Shown here: positions 11,775 to 18,768 of the stretch, piece by piece
Layout of the letters: every line of letters starts with the position of its first letter
Numbering within the stretch: the first letter of the stretch is position 1
Virus record (IMG/VR): IMGVR_UViG_3300044612_000496
Span: 1-26,476 of that record
Direction: 5' to 3' (one strand)
Source of the DNA: a virus
DNA: 26,476 nucleotides
The notes under the pieces: generated by a model
Databases searched by the model: none
What the model saw: only the letters and a program-made list of their open reading frames with translations
What the model was told of the DNA's origin: nothing
Made by a program: the position numbers and the translations under genes

Positions 11775-12482
11775 TTATACCCTGCAAAAAGTATGACCAG
11801 CAGCCGTTTTATAAATACCACAAAGCTGTTGATTAATTGAACTGCTCCCGGATTTTCTTCCGAAAAATTTAAGTCCAGCGGCAGTAAGGGATTCAAAAAT
11901 CTCGCCAGTTTCGTTGCACATGATCTTTATGTTCTTACCTCCATTTAGAATCCATTGATTCTTTGGCCTAATCAAAACGCCACTAGGAATGGTTCTTTTA
12001 ATCGTTTGGTGAGAAACATTAAGATCTTTTGCAATAGAACAAAGAGACTCACCGCTTTTATATCTTTCGATAATTTCGTGTCTTTGAGCCCAAACCTTTA
12101 GCATTGGCCTACTAATTGCGCCGCCCAATGAAAGATTATAAGTGTTCGAGCTGAGCACATACTCTTCATTAACTAACTCAGCCTCTAGGGCATAAGCATC
12201 GGATTCGCAGTCAAAGGAAGCTAAAACTTTAACCGCAAAGTTATCGTAACCATATTTAGCCACGGCGGCGCAAAACCCACCACGAACGCGCTTTGCTCTT
12301 TTTTCAGCTGACTGTTGGCTGGTTACGCCACAGCCAATGTAACCATTGTTAATTGATTGCAACTTAGTTACGCCCAAATAGGTCTTTCCATTGACCATAT
12401 TGGTTGTTTCATAGACGACGAACTTCTTGCCGCCCTGCACATCCCTACGCGGGACGTTACACTTCATAGCCTTCTTATTCAT
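11775..12482 (-). CDS. GIY-YIG homing endonuclease with DNA-binding modules
   Basis: 235 residues. Order: residues 1-23 resemble the N-terminus of the next gene (MKCNVPRR ... GGKKFVV). A GIY-YIG nuclease domain spans about 22-120, with a degenerate GIY as VVYETTN, then NGKTYLGV for YIG, R65 region, AKYGYDNFAVKVL, a likely catalytic Glu at 100 and YNLSLGG. A helix-turn-helix follows at about 137-165 (YKSGESLCSIAKDLNVSHQT), and a NUMOD-like module at 185-235 (ETGEIFESLTAAG ... TAAGHTFCRV). This is the classic layout of free-standing homing endonucleases, which cut an allele lacking the insert. Its ATG overlaps the end of the 55-residue gene (ATGAATAA). The gene is visibly more AT-rich than its surroundings, consistent with transfer. 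Confidence 0.85.
   Translation of the reverse strand: MNKKAMKCNVPRRDVQGGKKFVVYETTNMVNGKTYLGVTKLQSINNGYIGCGVTSQQSAEKRAKRVRGGFCAAVAKYGYDNFAVKVLASFDCESDAYALEAELVNEEYVLSSNTYNLSLGGAISRPMLKVWAQRHEIIERYKSGESLCSIAKDLNVSHQTIKRTIPSGVLIRPKNQWILNGGKNIKIMCNETGEIFESLTAAGLKFFGRKSGSSSINQQLCGIYKTAAGHTFCRV
12414..12482 (-). repeat. N-terminal segment duplicated from the downstream 80-aa gene
   Basis: Endonuclease residues 1-23 against residues 1-23 of the 80-residue protein: 13 identities by eye, including the block MKCNVP and KKF-x-V. Codons differ at many third positions (ATGAAGTGTAACGTC against ATGAAATGCAACGTT), so this is not a very recent copy. Confidence 0.65.
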
Positions 12483-13063: not shown

Positions 13064-13651
13064 CTAGGTGACGTAGTTGACGGATGCGATTCCGCGCCAG
13101 CGACTACCGCTGTCGTCGGTTACAAACACAAAAAGGTGGGTCTTGCCCGTGGACAGGCTGGGGGCGGTGTCATTCGGCCACTTCACGGCAGCAGGCCAAG
13201 TGATGGTGCCGGACGTATTCTCCACCTCTAGGGCAAAGGCATAGGCGCCGCTGGGCACGTTGCTGAACGTGAACGTGCTGTTCGCGTTAATCGTCTTGGT
13301 GAAGTAGTTGCCCAGCGAACAATCGACATCTAGGGACGCAACAACCGTCACCGCACTCTTATACTGTCCCGTAGCCTCAAGGCTCGTAAACTTGCCGGAA
13401 GAGGCCGTAGTGGAGCCAATAGCCAGCGGACTGGCAAACAACTGGGCAGCCGTGGTCTTACGCAGGGCTGTGTCAGCCGAGCTGTGGACAAGGATGGTGT
13501 CAGCCGAGGCTAGGGATGTCTTGGCCGTCTGATCCGTAATGGCACCGGGAAGCAAAACGGCATCATCAACGTGATTGTTGAGGTTCGTTGAGGTTACGAG
13601 ATTCGACGGCGAGGTCGTCCCGTAGGTTGTGCCTTTTTGAATCTGGGCCAT
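13064..13651 (-). CDS. Short tail-fibre-like protein sharing the C-terminal tip of the long fibre
   Basis: 195 residues from ATG 13651. The N-terminus (MAQIQKGTTYGTT ... STNLNNHVDDAVLLPGAI) resembles the start of small phage virion/fibre proteins. The middle has PLAIGSTTASSGKFTSLEAT, a motif also present in the long fibre (PPAIGGTTPAAGKFTTLDAT). Residues about 103-195 are about 70% identical by eye to the last 93 residues of the long fibre (LDVDCS, NYFTKTINANSTFTFSN, SGTITWP, TGKTH, FVTDD, RWRG). The shared end probably trimerises or contacts the receptor. It is followed by the holin-like genes and preceded by the assembly chaperone. It may be an alternative or auxiliary fibre. Confidence 0.75.
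   Translation of the reverse strand: MAQIQKGTTYGTTSPSNLVTSTNLNNHVDDAVLLPGAITDQTAKTSLASADTILVHSSADTALRKTTAAQLFASPLAIGSTTASSGKFTSLEATGQYKSAVTVVASLDVDCSLGNYFTKTINANSTFTFSNVPSGAYAFALEVENTSGTITWPAAVKWPNDTAPSLSTGKTHLFVFVTDDSGSRWRGIASVNYVT
13067..13345 (-). repeat. Shared fibre C-terminal module, copy 2
   Basis: The last 93 codons of the short fibre match the last 93 of the long fibre at 17038-17316. Protein identity is high while third codon positions differ in many places, pointing to an older duplication or to exchange between relatives rather than a recent copy. Confidence 0.8.
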
Positions 13652-13663
13652 GGCCTAAGTATA

Positions 13664-14107
13664 TCAGGGCTTTACGGGCCAGATTACATTATGCGGGAAG
13701 CCAGATTGGCTAGGAATGTCGCGGAGAGCCTGACGGTAGGTGGTCCACGCCACCTTGGAGGGATTGTCCAACGGAGTGTCGTTAAGCTGGGTCCAGTCGC
13801 ACTCGGTGAGCTTGGTGTTGCGCTCGGCGCGAACTTGCTTGGCCTTCTGGGTGTCAATCTCAGCCCGTTCCTCAGCTGTATAGGCCCGCCACAGCTTTAC
13901 CTCAACCACCTCATGCGGGTTGATGACGAACATCGACCCTGAAAACTTCTCATCCACAGCACCCTCATCAATACGAACCGGAAGCCAGCCAAGGGCTTTA
14001 AGCTCATCGTCGCTCAGCCAATTGAGGCCGGAAATGTTGCGCCAGCTAGCGGGCAGGGCGCGAGGCCCATCAACAATGGCGTTATTCTCTACCAGACAGT
14101 AGTTCAT
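13664..14107 (-). CDS. Tail fibre assembly chaperone-like protein
   Basis: 147 residues from ATG 14107. The N-terminal half (MNYCLVENNAIVDGPRALP ... LGWLPV) is the short beta domain often found in such proteins. The C-terminal half has the typical ending with a charged helix (AKQVRAERNTKLTECDWTQL), then AWTTYRQALRDIP and GFPHNVIWPVKP. The 'L-x-x-x-DWTQL-x-D...YRQALRDIP...P...WP' signature matches the phage tail assembly chaperone family. These proteins help fibre subunits fold and trimerise, and usually lie next to the fibre they serve. Here the gene lies just upstream of the short fibre and overlaps the sulfotransferase gene by 26 bases, so the three may be expressed together. Confidence 0.8.
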   Translation of the reverse strand: MNYCLVENNAIVDGPRALPASWRNISGLNWLSDDELKALGWLPVRIDEGAVDEKFSGSMFVINPHEVVEVKLWRAYTAEERAEIDTQKAKQVRAERNTKLTECDWTQLNDTPLDNPSKVAWTTYRQALRDIPSQSGFPHNVIWPVKP

Positions 14108-15866
14108 GTTCGTAGTTTAGGGCTTTGATTTCGTCAAAAGGATGGCTCCAGTCGCCATACTTCTGCTGGCGAAACAGCCGCATAGAGTTGTAGTAGGGCG
14201 TCTTAGGACCGGGTTCCGCATACAGATAATACCCCATTACTGGGATGACAACCCACGTTGGGACGCCCATTGCCGCAGAAAGGTGGCTTACAGACGTACA
14301 GGACGAGATTACGAGGTCGCAGGTGCTGACGGCGGCTTGGGTATCAGACCATGTATCAAGGGGCACCGTTTGCACCCAATCGGGCTTGTATTCCAAGTCG
14401 GCGTCCCGTTGCAGGCTAATAAACTCTACGTTGTCTCGTTTGACGGCATCGAAGAATAGGGGTGCCGGGAATAGCTTGTGGTGCTGGGCCTCAAACTGCT
14501 TGTTGCCCGACCAGCGCAGACCCACCCGCAGTTTCTTGGACTGGCGGACATATGGGATCTTGGATAGGTATGGGTCTCCATAAATCATCTCCTTGGATAG
14601 ATTCATATATGCCGGAGCTGACATACCAGCCATCCAAGCATCGTGGTAGATGCCATATTCCGCACCATGCTGCACCACCGCTGAACAAAGATTGGCGTCG
14701 TGGACAAACTTCACCAACTCGCCTGAGCAAGAAACAACAATGTCGGCTGTACCGGTTTGGCGGACATGGCGAATGTAGCCTAGCTGCTGGATCTGGTCGC
14801 CTAACCCTCCTTCAAGGTACATGAGCAGCGTAGCGCAGGGCTTGCCATCCCACTCTGGCTGGGGCGTGTTGGGCTTGCTGTTGCCAAATACTCCTACGTT
14901 GCGTCCACGCCGAAGCAGTTGATGGCCGAGGCGGAAGTTGCCGTCGTGTAGCTCGTACCAGCCACGGTTGTAGGCTGCGCGGTCATCGTTGGGACGTTCA
15001 ATAGCCAGCTTGTCAGCAATGCGTCGTCCCTCTTCAAAGTTGCCCATCGTCGACGCAGCAAGCTGAAGATCGAGGTCGTCTACCTCTGGCTTGGTGCGCG
15101 GCTCTGGCAACCAAAACTCGGGCTGACAGAACTGAGTGTAGTGGTGCTTGAGCACATCCTTGGGCGACTCGTTGTGCTGTCGCTCTAGCTTGGGCTTAAT
15201 GTCATGCATCCCCTTGCATCGATGCACCCCTTCATCGTCTTCCTTAACTGTTGATCCATCAATGTTATTGAAGTCGTACTCAAACGCAGGAAGTTCAAGA
15301 AACTGATGAATCCTATCTAGCTCGCGCTTGGGGTTTGCAAGTAGGTCTTCGTATTCGACAAACAACAAACAACTTGGATCATGAGTATGCCCAGCCATAA
15401 GCGTCTGGTAGGACACCTTTAGATGCGCTACCAAGCTATCTTTTGCCATGAACTCATCCAAGTTATCTGGCTTGGCTACGCGGACAAATGAAGCCATGCA
15501 GTCTGGGACACTACGAACGGTAGCAATGATACGAGGCTTTCGGCCTAATACCATTTCCATTGAAGACATGACCATTGGAATCGGCCATGCGCGACTCTTA
15601 TCAATCACAATCGGCTTATCTGTCTCGTAAAAGCCATTAATCAACGATTGCATAGAAGCAATAAGTTGCTTCCTACTGGGATCGCTGTCCTTCAAAAACT
15701 GCTCCTTGCCCCACGTTAAAGCCAAACCGTTCAAAGCAAAAACAAGCCCAGAGGTCGTTGTGACGTGGGCTTGCGGATTCTGGTTGAGGATTGCCGCTAA
15801 AAGCGTTGACCCCGAACGGGGAAGACCAGAAAGAAAGAATAGCTGTTTTTGAAGTGTCTTAGTCAC
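14082..15866 (-). CDS. Sulfotransferase fused to a TPR-like linker and glycosyltransferase-like domain
   Basis: 594 residues from GTG 15866, chosen because AAGGG (15871-15875) precedes it; a GTG at 15887 would add seven residues and has no such site. Residues 12-23 (LSGLPRSGSTLL) are the PAPS 5'-phosphosulfate loop. R118 and S126 in TVRSVPDCMASFVR fit the 3'-phosphate site of sulfotransferases. From about 265 to 325 a helical linker recalls TPR repeats (AASTMGNFEEGRRIADKLA, DDRAAYNRGWYELHDGNF). The C-terminal part carries GLRWSGN (about 449-455), DLVISSCTSVSHLSAAMGVP (517-536) and SMRLFRQ...GDW, the signature of GT-B type glycosyltransferases of the heptosyltransferase/O-GlcNAc-transferase-like group. 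It would move sulfate and sugar groups to a glycan, probably a host surface polymer or a phage fibre; the substrate is unknown. Confidence 0.8.
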   Translation of the reverse strand: MTKTLQKQLFFLSGLPRSGSTLLAAILNQNPQAHVTTTSGLVFALNGLALTWGKEQFLKDSDPSRKQLIASMQSLINGFYETDKPIVIDKSRAWPIPMVMSSMEMVLGRKPRIIATVRSVPDCMASFVRVAKPDNLDEFMAKDSLVAHLKVSYQTLMAGHTHDPSCLLFVEYEDLLANPKRELDRIHQFLELPAFEYDFNNIDGSTVKEDDEGVHRCKGMHDIKPKLERQHNESPKDVLKHHYTQFCQPEFWLPEPRTKPEVDDLDLQLAASTMGNFEEGRRIADKLAIERPNDDRAAYNRGWYELHDGNFRLGHQLLRRGRNVGVFGNSKPNTPQPEWDGKPCATLLMYLEGGLGDQIQQLGYIRHVRQTGTADIVVSCSGELVKFVHDANLCSAVVQHGAEYGIYHDAWMAGMSAPAYMNLSKEMIYGDPYLSKIPYVRQSKKLRVGLRWSGNKQFEAQHHKLFPAPLFFDAVKRDNVEFISLQRDADLEYKPDWVQTVPLDTWSDTQAAVSTCDLVISSCTSVSHLSAAMGVPTWVVIPVMGYYLYAEPGPKTPYYNSMRLFRQQKYGDWSHPFDEIKALNYEHELLSGRE

Positions 15867-15907
15867 AAGACCCTTATGACTTAACACTTAAAAAAGTAAA
15901 GCCGTTG

Positions 15908-17029
15908 TTATGGATTTCTAATGCCGTATTGAGCAAATCGACCAGCACTTATAGATTGCCATTTGTTTATAGATCCAATCTGCTGTGGAGACGATCTATC
16001 AGTAGTGGTTCCGCTACCTAATTGACCATAATAATTATAGCCCCATGACCAAATTGTTCCATCGGTCTTTAATCCAATAGAAGAAAGACCATCGCACTCT
16101 ACTACGGACCAATTTGAAAGTGCTCCGATTTGAGTGGGAACGGAATATATATCTATGTCTCCAAGACCAAGTCCACCATAGGTATTCAGGCCCCATGCCC
16201 ATGCTGTATTATTTGTTCTAACGCCAATAACGGCAGAACCGCCAGTTTTATCTTGAGATACCGATCTCCAATTGGTTGCTGTTCCAATTTGAACTGGTGA
16301 GAGTCTTTGATACACAGTTCCGTCTCCAAGCCCGTAGCCGTCATTTCTTCCCCAAGCCCAAAGAGTTCCGTCTGTCTTAACAGCGTGGGTCCATGAAGCA
16401 CCAGCAAAAACTTTTGACCAATTTGTTAATGACCCAACTTGGACTGGAGATGAACGACTGTCTGTGTTTCCCCTTCCAAGTCGTCCATTTTCTCCCCATC
16501 CCCAAGACCAAAGGGTTCCATCAGTTTTAACAGCAACAGAAAAGTTGCCTGTAGCAGCACAAGCATTTGACCAATTCGTTAATGATCCAATTTGAATTGG
16601 GGATGATTTATCTGTAGTGGTTCCATCTCCAAGTTGACCATTGCTATTACTGCCCCAAGCCCAAATGGTTCCGTCTGTTTTAATTGCAACACTATGACGA
16701 TATCCGGCAGATGCAGAAAGCCAATTAGTTAATGATCCAATTTGTACCGGAGAACTTCTTTCAGTTGTAGTTCCATCTCCAAGTTGACCAAATGCATTTC
16801 TTCCCCAAGCCCAAAGGGTTCCATCTGTCTTAACAGCAAGACAGTAATTTTGTCCACCCCTAATTGTTGACCAATCTTTTAGTGCCCCGACTTGTCTGGG
16901 AGATGAATAGTATGTAAGATTGTTTTGTCCCAACTGTCCATTTCCATTATATCCCCAAGACCAAAGTTGATATTCTGGTGCGCCTTCTCCGCCAGCACCC
17001 ATTGCAAGTCTAAGTACGTTCGGGTCCAT
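15908..17029 (-). CDS. RCC1-type seven-bladed beta-propeller, likely tail-associated binding protein
   Basis: 373 residues from ATG 17029. Seven copies of a roughly 50-residue unit are seen, marked by W-[SA]-WG at residues 23, 73, 123, 174, 224, 277 and 327, each followed by G-x-LG and G[DT]-type ends and by SSPVQIG and NW. Seven units give a closed RCC1-type propeller. There is no catalytic residue pattern; phage RCC1 proteins are usually thought to be virion-displayed binding proteins. It lies directly after the long fibre and before the sulfotransferase-glycosyltransferase gene, so a role in host recognition or glycan binding is likely. The region is visibly more AT-rich than the fibre genes on either side, suggesting separate acquisition. 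The start has an AT-rich leader (TAATTTTTATG), no Shine-Dalgarno motif. Confidence 0.85.
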   Translation of the reverse strand: MDPNVLRLAMGAGGEGAPEYQLWSWGYNGNGQLGQNNLTYYSSPRQVGALKDWSTIRGGQNYCLAVKTDGTLWAWGRNAFGQLGDGTTTERSSPVQIGSLTNWLSASAGYRHSVAIKTDGTIWAWGSNSNGQLGDGTTTDKSSPIQIGSLTNWSNACAATGNFSVAVKTDGTLWSWGWGENGRLGRGNTDSRSSPVQVGSLTNWSKVFAGASWTHAVKTDGTLWAWGRNDGYGLGDGTVYQRLSPVQIGTATNWRSVSQDKTGGSAVIGVRTNNTAWAWGLNTYGGLGLGDIDIYSVPTQIGALSNWSVVECDGLSSIGLKTDGTIWSWGYNYYGQLGSGTTTDRSSPQQIGSINKWQSISAGRFAQYGIRNP

Positions 17030-17034
17030 AAAAA

Positions 17035-18768
17035 TTAGTTAACGTAGTCTACGAGGGATGCGCCGCGCCAACGGGTGCCGCCATCATCCGTGACAAAGAT
17101 AAAGATATGCGTTTTGCCAGTAGTCAAGGTGGGAGCCGTATCCTTCGGCCATTTAACCGAGGTCGGCCAAGTGATAGTTCCCGACGTGTGGGTTAGCTCA
17201 AGGGCAAAGGCAAAGGCTCGGGTTGCCGGAGGATTACTAAACGTAAATGTCGAGTTGGCATTGATCGTCTTCGTGAAATAATTGGCCGTCGAGCAGTCAA
17301 CGTCCAAGGCTCCCATCGCCGTAATGTTGGAGGCGTAGTTGCCGTCTAGGTCCAAACGGGCAAGGGGCGTGCTTTGATTGATGCCAATGCGGTCTACCGA
17401 GGCATCGCTGAAGAACAAGTGGGTCTTGCTATCACCTTCAATGCGGAAGTCCTTGTCTGCCCCAGCTTCGTTAAACGTGAAGGTGCCGCCGTCAAAGCCA
17501 ACATTGCCCGTAGCGTCAAGTGTCGTAAACTTACCCGCTGCCGGAGTCGTTCCACCAATAGCAGGCGGGGAAGCTAGGTAGTCCGAAAAACCAGTTCCGC
17601 TTACGGTGCTCGATGCGCTCAGGGTAGTAAACGCGCCCGTAGAGGCACTAGACGCTCCAATGGTGGTGCCGTTGATAGACCCACCAGAAATTGTGACATT
17701 GTTGGCGTCTTGGCTAGAGATGGTGCCAAGAGTCGGAAGACCCGTCAGGTCTGAGTATTTGCCGCTAGTGGCGACAGTAGCAAGAGTCGGCGTGCCGCTG
17801 AGGTCGGCATACGCCCCCGTAGTGGCAACAGTAGCTAGTCCGCTGACGTTAGCCGCCGGAACTGTTCCCGTGCTAATCGTGCCAAGGGTGGTGATGTTTG
17901 TGCTGCCAGCCCAAGTGCTAAGAGCCGTGTTCTCTACGTTGCTAAGACCGATAGCGGTTTTCGCGGAACTGGCAGAGTAGTTCTCCCAACGCTTGTCTCC
18001 ACCGTCATAGACAAGGAAGTCGTTGTTGGTCGGGGACGTAAGCTGTACGTTCTGGTCCGTTCCACCAAGCTGCGAGCCGGGGAAGATCTTGACGTAAATC
18101 GAGCCAGAGCTACCGGAACCAGCGTTAGTAACGATACCAATTTCAGACTTAATATTGGGCGCAGCGGGCTTGGTAGCCGTCATTGCTCCACCGCCAGCCG
18201 GATCGTACCAAAGCGTATCGTTGTCTACGTACGCCGACGTGTTTAAGTTGGGGACCAGCCCCATTGCAATAACTCGACCAAAGCCGTTAAGGGCAATATT
18301 CTCAAAAGCTACACCAACAAAAGCATTGCCATCAGTAATGCCAGTAGTTGAGGGACCAAACGTAATTACACCAGAAGCCCCAACAACGCCCGTCTTCATT
18401 ATCAACTGACCCTTGGTGATTGCGGCAGACGCCTTGCCGTACACCATAATCTGTTCGTTAAGCTGGCTGGTGAAACCACCGCTATCGACATGAACATTCA
18501 GCGTTCCGGTGGAACCCCACCAAAGTTTGCCTTCCGTTGGAGTGACGGTAGCCGCTGTATCAAACTGGATAAAATCAGGGGACGACAGTCCTCCCGTGAT
18601 GCTAGCCATGGACGTGATGTCCGTGTTAGCACCAGACGCTGCCGCACCTAGATTGGTACGGGCATCAGTAGCATTAGTGGCTCCAGTTCCGCCCTGAGAA
18701 ACGGGAACTGTGCCGCTAATTGACGTGGACACCGGAGTGTCCAGCAACAGCGTCTTGAAGATGTCCAT
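17035..18768 (-). CDS. Long tail fibre protein
   Basis: 577 residues from ATG 18768, two bases after the upstream stop. The N-terminus has SGTVPVSQGGTGATNATDAR, a hallmark of phage fibres. The shaft carries repeats such as TTGAYADLSGTPTL / TSGKYSDLTGLPTL, NVTISGGSINGTTIG and STGAFTTLSAS, plus the motif IGLSNVENTALSTW. Near the end, DRIGINQSTPLARLDLDG resembles repeats found before fibre C-terminal domains. The last 93 residues form a beta-rich tip (NYFTKTINANSTFTFSN, SGTITWP, RWRGAS), shared with the short fibre at 13064-13651. It would trimerise and bind the host receptor. It is followed six bases later by the RCC1 propeller gene. Confidence 0.85.
   Translation of the reverse strand: MDIFKTLLLDTPVSTSISGTVPVSQGGTGATNATDARTNLGAAASGANTDITSMASITGGLSSPDFIQFDTAATVTPTEGKLWWGSTGTLNVHVDSGGFTSQLNEQIMVYGKASAAITKGQLIMKTGVVGASGVITFGPSTTGITDGNAFVGVAFENIALNGFGRVIAMGLVPNLNTSAYVDNDTLWYDPAGGGAMTATKPAAPNIKSEIGIVTNAGSGSSGSIYVKIFPGSQLGGTDQNVQLTSPTNNDFLVYDGGDKRWENYSASSAKTAIGLSNVENTALSTWAGSTNITTLGTISTGTVPAANVSGLATVATTGAYADLSGTPTLATVATSGKYSDLTGLPTLGTISSQDANNVTISGGSINGTTIGASSASTGAFTTLSASSTVSGTGFSDYLASPPAIGGTTPAAGKFTTLDATGNVGFDGGTFTFNEAGADKDFRIEGDSKTHLFFSDASVDRIGINQSTPLARLDLDGNYASNITAMGALDVDCSTANYFTKTINANSTFTFSNPPATRAFAFALELTHTSGTITWPTSVKWPKDTAPTLTTGKTHIFIFVTDDGGTRWRGASLVDYVN
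17038..17316 (-). repeat. Shared fibre C-terminal module, copy 1
   Basis: The last 93 codons of the long fibre are the counterpart of 13067-13345. The two copies are separated by about 3.7 kb holding the propeller, the sulfotransferase-glycosyltransferase fusion, the chaperone and the N-terminal half of the short fibre. Confidence 0.8.

Follow-up and report, generated by a model that had tools for sequence, protein, structure and literature searches.

A phage-associated sulfotransferase-TPR-glycosyltransferase fusion encoded behind an RCC1 propeller in a tail-fibre operon: a putative adhesin-modifying enzyme

The window analyzed here is a 26,476-base IMG/VR virus fragment that contains a tail-fibre operon on its minus strand. 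In order of transcription, the operon encodes a 577-aa fibre, a 373-aa RCC1 propeller, a fusion protein with sulfotransferase (ST), TPR and glycosyltransferase (GT) parts, a fibre chaperone and a short fibre. The 577-aa tail fibre protein (17035..18768; PHROG tail fiber protein, 7.8e-16) lies upstream of the gene for the RCC1 β-propeller (15908..17029; PF00415, 5e-73), which stands directly upstream of the fusion gene (14082..15887). The tail fibre assembly chaperone Phage_tail_APC (13664..14107; PF16778, 5.5e-27; PHROG tail fiber assembly) overlaps the end of the fusion gene by 26 nt, and is followed by the second, short fibre protein (13064..13651; PHROG tail fiber protein, 4.6e-16). An initial examination of the letters and open reading frames (hereafter, the sequence-only reading) had placed the enzyme between an RCC1 propeller and a fibre chaperone, and both neighbours are matched by Pfam. 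The two fibres share a C-terminal tip (68% identity over 105 residues). Elsewhere in the window, 11775-12482 and 553-954 resemble, by eye, GIY-YIG and HNH homing endonucleases.

The fusion frame runs uninterrupted for 601 codons from GTG 15887 to its stop at 14082. A second GTG, at 15866, lies seven codons into this frame and yields a protein of 594 aa; it is the better start, since it is preceded at ~5 bases by AAGGG and stands 41 nt from the RCC1 gene, in line with the 41-44 nt gaps common among relatives. This favours the start assumed by the sequence-only reading, which had also described one long frame with sulfotransferase, TPR and GT-B parts (its minus-strand orientation being unstated there); profiles and a confident structural model uphold that description, and the ST-TPR-GT arrangement in the window is confirmed as real. 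A chance or artefactual origin of the long frame was rejected, as the frame is intact in every fusion locus fetched. All fold claims rest on an AlphaFold2 model derived from 46 fused and unfused relatives (pLDDT 94.4, pTM 0.84), an earlier model from 35 close relatives (pLDDT 74, pTM 0.43) having been left out of them; the geometry of the PAPS site and of the GT-B domain, on which the original assignment had been made to depend, is retained in the confident model.

The ST domain (residues 10-267; 15087..15860, minus strand) presents a TPST-like fold. The window protein scores well above the cut-offs of Sulfotransfer_3 (PF13469; 9e-17, 62.5 bits vs. 27) and Sulfotransfer_1 (PF00685; 9e-12, 45.3 bits vs. 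22), and both profiles are matched by 29 of the 46 members of the A2 alignment. The PAPS 5'-phosphosulfate loop, initially noticed as LPRSGST, is present as L-P23-R-S-G-S-T28, and P23 to T28 (15804..15821) are invariant among the 35 fusions of the A1 alignment; the R...S pair suggested for the 3'-phosphate site is R125 and S133 (15489..15515), invariant in the fusions as well as in their unfused relatives. When the comparison is widened to unfused STs as distant as 24% identity, the invariant positions are R24, S27, L34, R99, W101, R125, S133 and H228. The top structural match of residues 10-267 is human TPST1/2 (Z 19.7, rmsd 3.6, 241 residues), other sulfotransferase classes reaching Z 16.0 or less, and the ST half also matches TPST1 by profile (1.8e-13). 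In TPST2, E99 is the catalytic base. The profile alignment sets this residue against T45 and the substrate-binding R101 against G47, so that neither is kept; T45 is nearly invariant among fused and unfused STs, and a lysine (K97) is kept at the position of TPST K158. Thus, the ST half shares with TPST1/2 its nearest fold and profile, the PAPS 5' loop, the 3'-phosphate site and this Lys, but differs from them in the Thr and Gly replacing the catalytic Glu and the substrate Arg, in having no transmembrane anchor and in its fusion to a GT. As the TPST fold is present but E99 and R101 are replaced, we regard it as a TPST-like PAPS enzyme without a defining TPST feature, whose PAPS-dependent sulfate transfer is predicted from the fold and the conserved cofactor sites.

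The TPR-like linker proposed earlier is borne out, though it is short: residues 271-331 (14895..15077, minus strand) form four helices in the model, that is, two TPR-like hairpins, and a search with the family profile finds designed TPR proteins (5e-6); with the window protein itself, Pfam TPR_16 gives only 0.07. The GT-B end was correctly recognized as to its fold, but not as to its extent, since both lobes span residues 352-601 (14085..14834, minus strand) in the model rather than 440-594. Its structural matches are heptosyltransferase-like: WaaF (Z 16.6), WaaC (15.7), TibC (15.6, 245 residues) and another GT9 (15.3), with WaaC/WaaF-type matches covering 231-241 residues. GT41 SPY is matched by Foldseek (1.5e-6) with an rmsd of 18, and the window protein has just two TPR-like hairpins. 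The invariant positions of the GT half are G361, G363, D364, W459, G461, T516, H535, Y566 and W580; when residue 352 is aligned to WaaC residue 1, D364 (14796..14798, minus strand) falls at the position of WaaC D13 and of TibC D110, the catalytic base of the latter (PMC4358343). The profile search proposed at the outset gave a divided outcome: the sulfotransferase families were matched, but no Pfam glycosyltransferase model matches the window protein, including Glyco_transf_9, which is matched weakly by 2 of 46 family members (best 2e-5). GT9 enzymes carry a “VDT” motif, at the site of which most family members have “SCT”. The likeness to WaaC/WaaF therefore lies in the GT-B fold and the position of the catalytic Asp, the lack of a Glyco_transf_9 match, the “SCT” and the additional TPR and ST parts setting the window protein apart. 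Glycosyl transfer by this half is predicted from the heptosyltransferase-like fold and the conserved D364.

Relatives were found in IMG/VR in 164 stretches with the window protein as query and in 541 with the family alignment. The locus lists hold the best 80 matches per scan and are redundant, hence dereplicated (85%) counts are given too; the contigs are fragments. Except for a few cut by contig ends, the fetched viral fusion loci carry a single frame of ~580-608 aa. The search of genome_contigs returned the fusion on five MAG contigs, together with one bacterial GT-only gene; one of the five (L115) is the same contig as an IMG/VR one (L004), and the other four measure 3-10 kb. Searches of two bacterial classes gave strong matches (E ≤1e-60) confined to the GT half in 28/145 and 11/274 genomes, and the fusion was found among these 419 genomes on only one short contig, which was already known; a bacterial origin of the fusion is unsupported by this survey. 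Within this sampling, the fusion is phage-associated, and its GT half has many bacterial relatives: bacterial TPR-GT proteins, many of them cyanobacterial, contain the same module without an ST, often as tandem copies in very long proteins. The TPR-GT of phage BUCT-ZZ01 is likewise the same module (34% identical), also behind RCC1 and without an ST domain, whereas the unfused phage STs (S-SRM01, S-SKS1, S-SCSM1 and marine viruses) belong to the same ST family (~24-33% identical) and stand alone. The closest sequenced phage is C75C1 (portal 58% identical); neither the enzyme nor RCC1 was matched in it in the search of phage records, which makes the module an optional one. One contig binned as Woesearchaeota (L118:4664-7051) encodes a 795-aa ST-TPR-GT fusion with an additional, methyltransferase-looking C-terminal stretch.

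The link to fibre genes in relatives, raised by the sequence-only reading, is found at the DNA level. Among the matches listed, RCC1 lies on the same strand and ≤1.5 kb upstream of 125/128 fusion genes (nonredundant 24/27), 91/125 GT-only genes (46/66) and 17/30 ST-only genes (8/17), such that ~30% of the listed GT-only genes and about half of the listed ST-only genes have no RCC1 within this distance; downstream RCC1 genes are much rarer. Counted by gene order, the nonredundant figures are 24/28 (fusion), 43/69 (GT-only) and 8/17 (ST-only), exceeding the 3.5, 8.1 and 1.8 that randomly drawn genes in these loci would be expected to give, and the gaps between RCC1 and enzyme genes are mostly <70 nt. 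Most GT-only and ST-only loci were fetched with the BUCT-ZZ01 GT and the AG-345-E08 ST as queries, and not with RCC1; as both were known RCC1 carriers when picked, their close relatives are not independent cases. Simple gene calling had suggested that four fusion loci (L084, L086-L088) were devoid of RCC1, which was rejected because RCC1 is present in all four gaps; for the same reason, a collagen fibre taking the place of RCC1 in L088 was no longer considered. In that locus (L088:462-3440), a collagen-repeat protein with six Pfam Collagen stretches is followed by an RCC1 frame of ~120 aa and then by the fusion enzyme.

A search of 50,697 phage records for RCC1 proteins >40% identical to that of the window returned only BUCT-ZZ01, AG-345-E08 and S-SRM01, and each of the three encodes ST and/or GT relatives within the fibre region that contains its RCC1. 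The order in BUCT-ZZ01 is tail fibre, chaperone-like gene, RCC1 and TPR-GT. S-SRM01 shows a distal fibre, RCC1, a small gene, a further RCC1, TPR-GT and a 2OG oxygenase, followed after several genes by RCC1, a sulfotransferase, further genes and a glycosyltransferase. Marine virus AG-345-E08 (L121:3431-16061) interleaves three RCC1 genes with 2OG-Fe(II) oxygenases, TPR-GT, ST and GT25, in what looks like a protein-modification island. The unfused STs of S-SRM01 and AG-345-E08 are directly downstream of RCC1, and STs adjoining RCC1 without a neighbouring GT also occur. Among unfused STs and GTs lacking RCC1, some follow a Kelch propeller, as the ST of S-SKS1 does (1.7e-13; weak in AG-345-O18), and some follow what are, by eye, glycine-rich fibre-type proteins (AG-345-E15, L247). 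The phages whose unfused ST or GT relatives stand behind RCC1, Kelch or such fibre-type genes include cultured ones that infect Synechococcus. Directly behind an RCC1 protein of 1794 aa, L243:8001-10004 (also L249) encodes an independent fusion in reverse order, with the GT (2-348) before the ST (413-637); the 5' loop of this ST is altered (PMAGQDS), and an EE pair lies close to where TPST carries its catalytic Glu.

The RCC1 partners of the fusion combine, across 66 loci, a conserved blade framework (SSP-x-Q-x-G in most blades) with highly variable loops, which suggests a receptor-binding surface or tip; one blade holds a conserved QDK stretch. Given that RCC1 is encoded just upstream in 125 of the 128 relatives listed, the target of the enzyme is probably the fibre with which the phage itself recognizes its host. 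A precedent exists in TibC, which heptosylates its partner, a repetitive adhesin (PMC4358343). TibC and its family (BAHT) resemble the window enzyme in the heptosyltransferase-type GT-B fold, the catalytic Asp and the pairing of the gene with that of a repetitive, adhesin-type protein; TibC, on the other hand, has no ST domain and possesses a four-Cys iron finger not apparent in the window protein (no Cys after residue 530), and the partner and putative substrate of the window enzyme is a phage RCC1/fibre protein. This precedent, together with a conserved scaffold under variable loops, leads us to propose, with somewhat better than even confidence, that, within the cell, the enzyme glycosylates and then sulfates the RCC1/fibre adhesin expressed along with it. 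This bifunctional, cytoplasmic enzyme, probably produced together with the fibre proteins, would bind through its TPR/GT-B half the RCC1 propeller or its fibre (the 577-aa protein being the alternative acceptor), and the GT half would move a sugar from a nucleotide-sugar to side chains on the scaffold that the propellers conserve. Sulfate from host PAPS would then be added by the ST half, most likely to that sugar and less likely to Tyr directly. The decorated adhesin would become part of the tail, and its sulfated glycan may there modulate adsorption, stability or shielding. Of the two partners, RCC1 is the faster-evolving one (mean distance 0.46 vs. 0.35 for the enzyme), and the distances of both correlate moderately (r 0.56 overall; in the 36 loci with the chaperone, 0.29, vs. 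0.75 for enzyme and chaperone), so that no tight enzyme-substrate coevolution is visible; an enzyme that recognizes the RCC1 scaffold might act on many variants of the loops, and the modest correlation would be consistent with that.

The sequence-only reading had considered two acceptors, the fibre of the phage and the surface polymer of the host. The GT half resembles the LPS heptosyltransferases WaaF/WaaC no less than it does TibC, which lends some weight to host-surface modification: the enzyme might glycosylate and sulfate LPS, O-antigen or capsule during infection, altering the receptor so that an infected cell and the debris it leaves no longer bind sibling phages, and serotype-modifying phage glycosyltransferases are known (cited in PMC12619734). 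This seems rather unlikely to us, however, since the gene lies among structural genes, right behind that of an adhesin and overlapping the fibre chaperone, and an enzyme acting on the host surface would have no reason to keep such close company with RCC1 in phages that are unrelated; the fibre fits better as acceptor in this setting. Furthermore, a search of 10 relatives, part of which are fragments, revealed no tyrosine integrase, which also weakens the role in blocking superinfection suggested at the outset.

Two other readings concern what the ST and GT halves do. The proximity of the ST half to TPST in both profile and fold, and the unfused STs that adjoin RCC1 with no adjacent GT, would suit an ST that sulfates Tyr of the RCC1 or fibre protein directly, with the GT half acting at separate sites and the fusion merely co-localising two modifications; the replacement of Glu99 and Arg101 by T45 and G47 in the family speaks against it, as do the partner RCC1 proteins, which are not clearly Tyr-rich (Tyr is not clearly enriched in those encoded ahead of STs, and the Tyr/Ser/Thr composition of the partners is uninformative), and we hold this to be rather unlikely. 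Far less probable still is a virion component whose ST and GT folds serve as binding modules without catalysis: it is encoded between fibre genes, and T45 and C530 sit where known homologues have acidic residues, but a non-catalytic role would not demand that the PAPS-site residues, K97 and D364 persist, as they do, across a large divergence.

Besides the window protein, the same logic may extend to adhesin-modification cassettes in several phage lineages (the window's virus group, cyanomyoviruses and marine single-cell viruses), in which an RCC1, Kelch or glycine-rich protein would be followed by dedicated enzymes (GT, ST, 2OG oxygenase, methyltransferase, GT25) adding a sulfated glycan, the window protein being a bifunctional version; we advance this broader reading tentatively, at slightly less than even chances. 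If correct, it would mean that phages obtain sulfated proteins for host recognition by a route not described so far. The individual domains are known, and the ST-TPR-GT architecture and its pairing with an adhesin appear undescribed; in the open-access literature, we found no description of phage sulfotransferases with RCC1 or of glycosylated or sulfated tail fibres, and matches to the “Rcc1” of RcGTA were discarded, as they are gene tags. A precedent for glycans on phage virion proteins is the glycosylation of mycobacteriophage virions (Freeman 2023, cited in PMC12619734), which concerns the capsid and tail tube of other phages and different enzymes, the citing text making no mention of sulfation. 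What phage sulfotransferases do has been described as unclear (PMC10580990, 2023), and for phage RCC1 proteins an action on DNA has been guessed (PMC7247149). The evidence gathered here ties these sulfotransferases and a companion GT family to the fibre genes by which many aquatic phages recognize their hosts. Should the proposed modification hold, phage adhesins can be sulfated glycoproteins, a chemical layer missed by host-range prediction from protein sequence alone, and phage RCC1 proteins would be better read as fibre tips than as DNA-acting. RCC1 proteins can also attain a considerable length, those directly upstream of the TPR-GT genes of L176, L182, L190 and L222 measuring ~2,650 aa.
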